Source: Bacillota bacterium (GTDB lineage Bacteria; Bacillota; DTU025; MWDF01). Taken from it: a stretch of 64,000 nt of DNA. This document shows positions 34,399 through 39,775 of the stretch, piece by piece. The stretch lies in assembly GCA_029565935.1 (NCBI GenBank), contig JAKQNF010000002.1, forward strand, positions 1-64,000, given 5' to 3'. Position 1 is the first letter of the stretch; each line of letters starts with the position of its first letter. A program made the translations under genes and the position numbers. A model generated the notes under the pieces. That model did no database searches. It was not told the DNA's origin and saw only the letters and a list, made by a program, of their open reading frames with translations.

Positions 34399-34755
34399 CT
34401 ACCAGAGGATATGGATAGGATCTACGGTCACTAAACGATCGCCTATAACGACATCGATGAAATTATGCTCCGCTTGGATTCCTAGCCTTGCGGCCCAATC
34501 AAGCGCCGCTTCAACCAAAGAGGCGGTCTTGTCGAGAAGTTTTTCGATGATTGCGTCCAAACTGGCGTAATCACCAGCAGCAACAGCTTCATCTGCTTTT
34601 GTCTGCGCATTTTCGATTTCCCTGTAGATATGAAGGTTCACGTTTTCAAGATGGTTCGCTTCCTCGGCAGTCAAGGTCGCTGCAAAGGCAGGAACTGCTA
34701 CGGATGCTATTATCAGAATGGCCGTAAACAGAGCGATCGCGTTAAGCTTTCTCAT
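34399..34755 (-). CDS. Small secreted protein of unknown function under c-di-GMP riboswitch control
   Basis: This is a 118-aa precursor. The signal peptide is clear: RK, hydrophobic about 5-20, and likely cleavage AFA|AT after residue 25. The mature part of about 93 aa is predicted mainly helical and acidic (TAEEANHLENVNLHIYREIE, then EKLLDKTASLVEAALDWAAR), ends in DPIHILW, and has no cysteine or second membrane segment. I do not recognise the family. The start at 34755 follows AGGAGGTCAC; the in-frame ATG at 34773 includes that SD. A cyclic-di-GMP-I riboswitch and terminator precede it, so synthesis should track the second messenger. An adhesion, matrix or envelope role is a guess from that control. 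Confidence 0.75.
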   Translation of the reverse strand: MRKLNAIALFTAILIIASVAVPAFAATLTAEEANHLENVNLHIYREIENAQTKADEAVAAGDYASLDAIIEKLLDKTASLVEAALDWAARLGIQAEHNFIDVVIGDRLVTVDPIHILW

Positions 34756-34805
34756 GTGACCTCCTACTTTCAAGGTCTGCCCCTACCTCCCACCGGTTAA
34801 GAAGA

Positions 34806-34837
34806 GGACGGCATATGCCTTTCGGTATATGCCGTCC
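34806..34837 (-). terminator. Riboswitch expression-platform hairpin
   Basis: A 14-bp hairpin with one mismatch (GGACGGCATAT arms, tetraloop GAAA on the minus strand) lies 30 nt after the riboswitch aptamer and 50 nt before the start codon. It ends in TCTTCTTAA, so it is a plausible but not strong intrinsic terminator. Confidence 0.7.
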
Positions 34838-34867
34838 AGTCCCCGGAAAGGAACAGAAAGTCCTTCT

Positions 34868-34950
34868 TTCGGCAACTGGCAGCCATAGGCTTGCGCCCTT
34901 AGGCCCTTAGCTTTGCGTCGCTGGCTTTCGCCAGTTTTGCTATTATCGGT
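34868..34950 (-). promoter_or_regulatory. Cyclic-di-GMP-I (GEMM-I) riboswitch
   Basis: Read on the minus strand, the aptamer shows AGCAAAAC, a stem CTGGC-GAAA-GCCAG and the conserved core GACGCAAAGC. It then shows CCTAAG (34898-34903) and TATGG (34883-34887), the two halves of an 11-nt GAAA-tetraloop receptor, and it closes with GCCAGTTGCCG. This order matches the class I c-di-GMP aptamer. A cGAMP-preferring GEMM-Ib variant cannot be excluded by eye. An open frame running through it (34783-35031) is not a gene. Confidence 0.9.
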
Positions 34951-35002
34951 GAAGGTAAGAAAGCCCAACCTATATATTTCTGCGCATACGCGCATTAACT
35001 TC

Positions 35003-35031
35003 AGTATATATACATGCAGGCCAAGTTTCAA
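35003..35031 (-). promoter_or_regulatory. Sigma-A promoter of the riboswitch transcript
   Basis: On the minus strand, TTGAAA (35026-35031), 17-bp spacer, TATACT (35003-35008). It starts 12 bp after the stop of the HD-GYP gene, so the riboswitch transcript can be made independently of that gene. Confidence 0.82.
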
Positions 35032-35043
35032 TATGCGTATATG

Positions 35044-36324
35044 CTAACTATTTCGCATCAATTTGTTCTCTTCCTGCAGTATCTCGCCTAGCGTTTCTAC
35101 TATATCCCCATCATATTGCGCCGAAAGCGACCTTAATTCATCCATCGCCTCATCATGCGACATGGCTTTCCTGTACGCCCGGTCCGAGGTCATGGCATCG
35201 AAAGCGTCCGCTACAGCTACGATCTTCGCTTCGAGCATTATCTCGTCGCCCTTCAACCCCTTGGGGTATCCTGAGCCGTCTAATCTCTCATGGTGCTGTT
35301 CGACTATGTTGGTGAGGTCTTCTTCGAACTTCGAGCTGAGCATCTTGACGCTATCACTAGGGTGGTGCTTTATGTACTCAAACTCCAGCTCACTCAACCT
35401 GCCGGCTTTGTTTAGTATTTCATCCGGTATGTTGACCTTTCCTATGTCATGGAAAAGTGAAGCGACCGCAAGAGTCAGAAGCATATCATTCGGCAAGCCC
35501 ATACGCGAGGCTATCTTCAGGGAATATTGTTCAACTCTTATGCTGTGGTTATGTGTATAGACGTCCTTCTCTTCATACTGCCTCAGAAGCTTGTTTAAGT
35601 CAGCCATGAAGTCCAGCAGGTAGTCAAATATGGGCTTAGAAGCAATGTATATCGCCTTAGCCCCATCATCTGCGCTAAAAGAAATCGTCCTGTCGAGGTC
35701 ATAGACATAGAAGCTATCGCCAGGATCTAATCGGTGGACGTCGGCTTCGTCTTTGAGATAGAAGGAGCCGTTTACGATGTAGAAGAATTCCAATAAATCT
35801 GGCACATCCCCGGGTGTGACGCATCCGGGCCTGTCTCCGAATATCTCCTGCATCATAATGTCCAGGCCGCCGCCGCTCGCCAGAAGGCTCAAGGCGTTGT
35901 TATCCTGTGATACCCTGCTTATGCAGCCCTGGCCCATTATGTAAAGGCCGCCGCCGACAGATTTCCTATAGGGCTTTTCGTCCATCCCTATGTTCATCTG
36001 CTTTGTTATTGAGATATTGCTAGCTATGAAGATGTAAGTATCGGTTTTCGTCGCTACAAGGACTGGTTTCCTCAAGTTATGGGTGTAGAAATATTCCCCT
36101 TTGGCTAGCTGTACTTTAAAGCCGCCCGATTCAACCTCTACTTCACCCTCTAGTATGAAGAAGAACTCTAGCAGGTCCTCAAAAATTGTCGGTTTAAGCT
36201 GTATACGTTCATCAATCTGAAGGTGCAGGACGGAAATCCTTACGTTGGCCCTATTGACTAGGACCCTTTCTTGAGACGCGGCATCAATCTCTCTATTCGA
36301 TTTGTTGATGAACAATCTTTGCAT
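35044..36324 (-). CDS. Tandem-cupin HD-GYP protein, predicted c-di-GMP phosphodiesterase
   Basis: This 426-aa soluble protein has two cupin-like beta-barrels followed by an HD-GYP domain. The two cupins are related: LLEFFFILEG (51-60) and LLEFFYIVNG (177-186), each followed by a Gly-Asp/Glu turn (AKGEYFY and DPGDSFYVY). HD-GYP motifs are complete: HDIGK (292-296), HHERLDGSGYPKGL (344-357) and VADAFDAMTSDRAYR (371-385). HD-GYP enzymes hydrolyse c-di-GMP to pGpG/GMP. The cupins probably sense a small ligand or a metal, but they lack the classical His-rich metal signature, so the ligand is open. There is no membrane segment. GGAGGT precedes the ATG. It sits just upstream of a c-di-GMP-I riboswitch. 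Confidence 0.88.
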   Translation of the reverse strand: MQRLFINKSNREIDAASQERVLVNRANVRISVLHLQIDERIQLKPTIFEDLLEFFFILEGEVEVESGGFKVQLAKGEYFYTHNLRKPVLVATKTDTYIFIASNISITKQMNIGMDEKPYRKSVGGGLYIMGQGCISRVSQDNNALSLLASGGGLDIMMQEIFGDRPGCVTPGDVPDLLEFFYIVNGSFYLKDEADVHRLDPGDSFYVYDLDRTISFSADDGAKAIYIASKPIFDYLLDFMADLNKLLRQYEEKDVYTHNHSIRVEQYSLKIASRMGLPNDMLLTLAVASLFHDIGKVNIPDEILNKAGRLSELEFEYIKHHPSDSVKMLSSKFEEDLTNIVEQHHERLDGSGYPKGLKGDEIMLEAKIVAVADAFDAMTSDRAYRKAMSHDEAMDELRSLSAQYDGDIVETLGEILQEENKLMRNS

Positions 36325-37324: not shown

Positions 37325-37653
37325 GCAAGCAATCCGGATGGCCGCAGGATAAAACCTGAGGAAAGTCCGAGCTCCAAAGGGCAGGGTGCCGGGTAACGCC
37401 CGGTGAGGGTGACCTTAAGGAAAGTGCAACAGAAAACAAACCGCCGTAAAAGGTAAGGATGAAAAGGTGCGGTAAGAGCGCACCAGCGCATAGGCGACTA
37501 TGCGGCTTGGCAAACCCCACCCGGAGAAAGATCGAATAGGAGGGGAACAAGGTGGCCCGCCTTTCCCTCGGGTCGATCGATAGAGCGTCATGGCGACATG
37601 GCGTCGAGATGGATGGCCATCCACGACAGAACTCGGCTTACAGGATTGCTTGC
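37325..37653 (+). ncRNA. rnpB: RNase P RNA, bacterial class A
   Basis: This is the catalytic RNA that matures tRNA 5' ends. The conserved blocks are in order: GAGGAAAGTCCGAGCTCC near the 5' end, then ACAGAAAACAAACCGCC, GGTAAGGATGAAAAGGTGCGGTAAGAG (the P10-P12 area), and the 3' block ACAGAACTCGGCTTACAGG. The terminal helix P1 is GCAAGCAATCC (37325-37335) with GGATTGCTTGC (37643-37653). The helix is followed by ATTTTTA. Open frames crossing this region are spurious. Confidence 0.96.
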
Positions 37654-37687
37654 ATTTTTAAATTACTATGCGAAAGGAGGCATGCCA

Positions 37688-39529: not shown

Positions 39530-39775
39530 CGAAATGCGTCGAAGGGGAAGAGTAGTGCCCGATTGCCAGAAAGAGAGCGGGGGTAGGTGTGAACCCGTGT
39601 GGCATAGAGCGTGAAAATCACCCCGGAGCAGCAGGCTGAATGCAGGAGTAAGCCGAGCCGGAAGATCCTCCGTTAAAGGGATGGGGCATCATCAGTGCCT
39701 TTGAGAGGGCCGCCATGCGGCCAAATTGGGTGGTACCGCGGGTAATCCCGTCCCATGTAGGACGGGTTTTTTCAT
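39530..39775 (+). promoter_or_regulatory. T-box leader, isoleucine-specific
   Basis: A long T-box leader has the stem I elements AGAGAGCGGGGG and GTGTGAACCC. The specifier ATC (Ile) is at 39617-39619 in GTGAAAATCACC. The T-box sequence GGGTGGTACCGCGG is at 39728-39741, and the terminator CCCGTCC (39747-39753) with GGACGGG (39760-39766) is followed by TTTTTT. Uncharged tRNA-Ile should favour antitermination and ileS expression. Confidence 0.96.

Follow-up and report, generated by a model that had tools for sequence, protein, structure and literature searches.

What does it mean that a predicted c-di-GMP-degrading enzyme is encoded directly upstream of a c-di-GMP riboswitch and a secreted protein, all on one strand? 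This question is raised by a locus on contig JAKQNF010000002.1 of a Bacillota bacterium (assembly GCA_029565935.1), of which a stretch of 64,000 nucleotides, called the window below, was analysed. An earlier note, made from the letters of the window alone, had described a tandem-cupin HD-GYP gene, a promoter with aptamer and hairpin, and a 118-aa secreted protein gene as a compact signalling module.

The locus in the window and in its genus

The three elements lie in a row on the minus strand as described (Table 1), and the same trio is present in the sister genome G001 (MWDF01000005.1, Firmicutes bacterium ADurb.Bin153). None of its parts was found in a third genome of the window's genus, which is 77% complete. 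Two further elements of the window look ordinary, a class A RNase P RNA (37326-37656) and a T-box leader (39530-39758) just before an isoleucyl-tRNA-synthetase-like gene.

Table 1. Elements of the locus, in window positions and in order of transcription.
Element	Position	Strand	Basis
Tandem-cupin HD-GYP gene, 426 aa	35044..36324	-	Pfam, alignment of relatives, solved structures
Putative promoter of the riboswitch-secreted gene unit, sigma-A-type TTGAAA-N17-TATACT	35003..35031	-	Consensus match and conservation
GEMM-I aptamer (RF01051)	34868..34951	-	Rfam, 74.9 bits; 98% identity in the sister genome
Long hairpin, 11-bp stem and GAAA-capped inner stem (34837-34806), imperfect U-rich tail (34805-34799)	34799..34837	-	Folding in both genomes
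Secreted protein gene, 118 aa	34399..34755	-	ATG at 34755, stop ending at 34399; signal peptide; alignments of 23 members and 28 pairs

The identity of the RNA as GEMM-I, proposed in the earlier note, was confirmed by a covariance score more than twice the gathering score of 35 (E = 7e-13, model positions 1-87 of 87), and it is the single RF01051 copy in the 1.8-Mb genome. GEMM-I aptamers of the c-di-GMP type carry a G at a core position where the cGAMP-type variant carries an A. This G is present in the window, directly before CAAA in the aptamer core, and favours c-di-GMP as the ligand. Between the window and the sister genome the aptamer is far better conserved than the flanking genes, which are 81-83% identical.

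The putative promoter starts 13 nt past the HD-GYP stop codon, and both its hexamers and their spacing are identical in the sister genome. Since matches to the consensus occur at chance level (3 found vs 4.6 expected in shuffles), a lone match is no better than chance, and support for the independent sigma-A promoter claimed earlier comes from conservation and position instead.

The secreted protein belongs to a wider family

The 118-aa protein has a predicted Sec-type signal peptide with an AFA/A site, followed by helices and a beta-like segment at the C-terminus. Its codons are under purifying selection relative to the sister genome (dN/dS 0.16). Searches with the single sequence returned the sister genome only and suggested an orphan restricted to the genus, but this was overturned by a profile built from two sequences (see below). 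The earlier note had called the protein unassigned, which holds in so far as no consistent Pfam or NCBIfam match was obtained among 23 members; it is, however, not an isolated orphan, as relatives occur in at least eight Bacillota families. It therefore is a member of a recognisable, apparently unnamed family.

Members of this family are 90-235 aa long and end in a conserved (V/I)DP motif. In the alignments of 23 members and of 28 pairs, conservation is highest at the C-terminus while the middle is variable; D112-P113 and N40 are invariant in the 28 pairs. An AlphaFold model showed two long helices and a C-terminal hairpin at low confidence (pLDDT 61), and a fold search of the PDB with this model gave nothing significant. 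Sequence matches of the family profile in the PDB were coiled coils and helical bundles, with a designed bundle first (1e-6), and were judged to reflect composition, not homology.

The secreted protein gene is paired with a cupin-HD-GYP gene

The first profile was built from the two small proteins of the window's genus alone, contained no HD-GYP information and was run on 399 Bacillota genomes. At E < 1e-3 it detected 8 genomes, six of them outside the genus (E 2e-4 to 1e-6). All 8 fall within the 12 genomes that were identified separately, with the cupin part of the HD-GYP protein as query, and all six non-genus genomes are among the ten non-genus genomes with that cupin part. The small gene and the cupin-HD-GYP gene adjoin on one strand in these genomes; in G393 the pair is located at the ends of two contigs. 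A profile of ten members, run on 400 genomes of one class, detected 15 loci at E ≤ 1.5e-9, spread over 14 new genomes, and all 15 directly adjoin a cupin-HD-GYP gene on the same strand. Four weak matches (L210-L213, E near 1e-4) were not next to an HD-GYP gene and were put down to chance.

Searching plasmids with the HD-GYP query added a cultured example, Peptoclostridium acidaminophilum DSM 3953 (EAL2_RS11105 and EAL2_RS11110). Matches on Rossellomorea and Acetoanaerobium plasmids were HD-GYPs of other architecture and were discarded, and in Pontibacillus a cupin-HD-GYP gene was present but no small gene was seen. Direct tblastn of plasmids with the small protein found no relative.

Overall, the two genes are neighbours in all 28 of the pairs that were examined, with one pair interrupted by contig ends, and the co-occurrence of secreted protein and HD-GYP that the earlier note had proposed is thus borne out. 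The secreted gene comes first in 25 pairs, and the HD-GYP gene in 3 (window, sister genome and Peptoclostridium). As some of these pairs come from related species and do not represent independent events, the number of families is the safer measure: the pair occurs, with differing flanking genes, in at least eight Bacillota families (f1, f51, f127, f90, f81, f88, f25 and f192), plus Peptoclostridium. A literature search for HD-GYP proteins with cupins retrieved no description of the pair in open-licence papers. The pairing and the secreted family hence appear undescribed in the open literature searched, as the earlier note had suspected of the combination, although the types of component are known or recognisable.

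Some loci depart from the simple pair. In genome G261, a gene for a 92-aa secreted protein with the related C-terminal motif ...TVDP (L185:5930-6205) is flanked on either side by a cupin-HD-GYP gene; this arrangement is probably a divergent version of the pair. G611 has two copies of the pair (L207, L214), and one of its secreted proteins is extended to ~235 aa by a coiled coil. In f25 genomes (L204, L206) a GGDEF gene lies directly upstream, so that the order is cyclase, secreted protein, phosphodiesterase; judged from sequence, this gene is another link to c-di-GMP.

The cupin-HD-GYP protein

In an alignment with nine relatives, the protein of the window is divided into an extra cupin (residues 1-120), a cupin common to all relatives (121-240) and the HD-GYP domain (246-417). 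Pfam matches agree with this layout: HD_5 was detected at E = 8e-41 and Cupin_2 at E = 5e-9 in two stretches, and Cupin_3 matches as well. One cupin is a duplicate of the other (blastp E = 4e-7, 25% identity); the domain is single in the relatives and duplicated in the window's genus. Throughout 28 sequences the classical cupin HxH...E motif is incomplete, with the Glu (E179) conserved and no HxH.

The complete HD-GYP signature that had been read from the sequence is indeed there: the ligands of HD, H, HH and D and the Lys of HDxGK (H292, D293, K296, H321, H344, H345, D373) are present together with the GYP motif, and the metal-site residues and GYP are intact in all 28 paired HD-GYPs. These residues are shared with the solved HD-GYPs 4mcw, 5z7c and 3tm8, from which the protein differs by its N-terminal cupins (two here, one in relatives). 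The Glu in the first helix of 4mcw is replaced by Tyr256, and 5z7c has a Tyr in this column too. By sequence, 5z7c (V-cGAP3), a 3'3'-cGAMP-specific phosphodiesterase, is also the best solved relative. An AlphaFold model of the HD-GYP protein, built from two sequences, was too poor for use (pLDDT 34).

Domain searches of the window's genome gave four matches to GGDEF, of which one contains an in-frame TGA, and four to HD-GYP, including the one in the window; c-di-GMP signalling is therefore expected in this organism. The four GGDEF and the three other HD-GYP domains are predicted to feed the same c-di-GMP pool. This limits the earlier note's reading that the HD-GYP of the locus sets the level seen by the RNA, just as the absence of a conserved HxH limits its reading of the cupins as ligand sensors. 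The GGDEF match with the in-frame TGA (G000:C29:49701-50162) is possibly a pseudogene or an assembly error.

The riboswitch is an addition in two genera

Outside the window's genus, GEMM-I was found at the pair in five genomes of g133, which belongs to another family. There it lies 128-132 nt ahead of the start of the small gene, and the order is aptamer, small gene, cupin-HD-GYP gene. No GEMM-I was present in the flanks read of most pairs (f127, f90, f81, f88, f25, f192 and Peptoclostridium); control of the secreted gene by c-di-GMP is therefore, as far as sequence can tell, not general. Because the pair occurs in many genomes with no GEMM-I nearby, the conserved core is best described as the two-gene pair, and the riboswitch as a lineage-specific addition in two genera. 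The idea of a signalling trio is modified by this: phosphodiesterase, aptamer and secreted gene do recur together in g133, as one apparent operon, but the conserved unit is the pair.

One g133 genome, G162, has lost the aptamer (L183, upstream of 6616, minus strand), while the flanks of the leader and the hairpin are kept. Its small gene is degraded and the DP motif is gone. Such a combined loss suggests mutual dependence of the parts.

In a sample of 74 GEMM-I sites, the gene immediately downstream frequently encoded an HD-GYP protein (about 11 loci), and genes of secreted proteins were common in this position. The window copy, full-length and with the c-di-GMP-type core, resembles many class I c-di-GMP riboswitches in preceding a secreted-protein gene. 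An HD-GYP gene that ends just upstream of GEMM-I on the same strand was, however, seen in the window's genus only, where the aptamer sits between the phosphodiesterase gene and the putatively regulated gene.

Predicted folding of the leaders

The long hairpin of the window, with its U-rich tail, is a possible terminator. Its 5' arm can pair instead with the 3' strand of the aptamer, at -18.1 kcal/mol in the window and -15.9 kcal/mol in the sister genome, and this alternative pairing was matched by 16 and 84 of 2000 shuffles, respectively. Ligand binding would favour the hairpin in the window's genus, and if the hairpin terminates transcription, the secreted gene would be turned OFF. The folds thus give a hint of ligand-OFF polarity. 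When the predicted accessibility of the ribosome site was compared between leaders with the aptamer included and left out, no clear switch emerged. The tandem c-di-GMP-I riboswitch of the Bacillus thuringiensis cspABCED operon, likewise a GEMM-I upstream of genes in a Bacillota, has been reported to be ON, as the ligand removes a terminator (PMC4759541).

The g133 leaders (L094, L182, L184, L190, L192) measure ~130 nt from aptamer to start codon and have a strongly conserved hairpin with no U tail. In their predicted folds the hairpin arm did not pair strongly with the 3' strand of the aptamer. A long-range GACGUC...GACGUC pairing covers the ribosome-binding site in four of the five folds, which suggests translational control in g133.

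A proposed c-di-GMP-coupled unit and its alternatives

Our preferred reading, to which we give about an even chance, is that the locus is a c-di-GMP-coupled unit of a secreted helical protein and a c-di-GMP-lowering enzyme, and as such a variant of the conserved pair. The core unit would consist of a small, helix-rich, Sec-secreted protein with a (V/I)DP end beside a soluble cupin-HD-GYP phosphodiesterase. An intracellular cue might act through the cupin domain to tune c-di-GMP hydrolysis, and the secreted protein might be what the same pathway delivers to the cell surface or the surroundings, so that the cell would carry an exported product and a c-di-GMP-lowering enzyme as a set; the evidence for the surface role is the predicted signal peptide. 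The riboswitch of the window's genus, together with its putative promoter, precedes the secreted gene only, and this product would be gated by c-di-GMP while the phosphodiesterase is transcribed separately. As the head of the operon in g133, the riboswitch should gate both the secreted gene and the phosphodiesterase, with feedback on c-di-GMP. Of all this, the pairing, its spread, the aptamer and the two regulatory layouts are seen in the sequences, and enzyme activity, ligand binding, secretion, surface role and polarity are predictions.

An unlikely alternative, and the most novel one, is that the two proteins are signal and receptor: the secreted protein, or its C-terminal fragment, would enter the cell or have its signal transduced, would be sensed by the cupin and would directly change c-di-GMP hydrolysis. 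Rap-Phr systems, pairs of a TPR regulator as receptor and a secreted propeptide, offer a parallel, as there too a soluble regulator adjoins the gene of a small secreted protein. The strict adjacency in many families and in both gene orders would suit such a scheme, as would the conserved C-terminus behind a variable middle, and the cupin is duplicated only in the lineage with the altered layout. Yet the pair differs from Rap-Phr in its cupin-HD-GYP regulator and longer secreted protein; proteins of 90-235 aa with helices and a hairpin are unlike a propeptide. Across the 28 pairs, moreover, the mirror-tree correlation of the small protein with the cupin (0.83) was no higher than with the HD domain (0.84), and the scheme is based on adjacency and predicted signal peptides. 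If it were true, cells across Bacillota could influence c-di-GMP in one another by this route, and the riboswitch would close the loop in two lineages.

We regard it as similarly improbable that 3'3'-cGAMP is the substrate of the HD-GYP, or that the enzyme is no longer active, and that the secreted gene acquired its c-di-GMP riboswitch without any connection to the enzyme. V-cGAP3 as the best solved match, the Tyr in place of the first-helix Glu and the lack of GEMM-I at most pairs would all fit this; the metal-site residues and GYP are nevertheless intact in 28 proteins, the aptamer core carries the c-di-GMP-type G, and the g133 aptamer heads an operon that contains the enzyme. Slightly less probable still is that the genes are neighbours with no functional link, kept together by operon economy or transfer, and that the riboswitch controls a secreted protein in the ordinary way known from many Bacillota. 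It is true that GEMM-I commonly precedes genes of secreted or surface proteins and HD-GYP genes, and that related genomes inflate the pair count. Against this, the pair is found in at least eight families, in both orders and with different flanks, and every strong match of the small-protein profile adjoins the same unusual cupin-HD-GYP architecture.

For an unannotated group of secreted proteins, a predicted c-di-GMP phosphodiesterase is thereby identified as the constant partner in at least eight families of Bacillota. Two circuit designs are found for one gene pair, in which the riboswitch heads either the secreted gene by itself or the secreted gene together with the phosphodiesterase gene, and G162, with its aptamer gone and its secreted gene decayed, is a natural test of the mutual dependence of the parts. 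The small protein and its partner can be tested in the cultured P. acidaminophilum.
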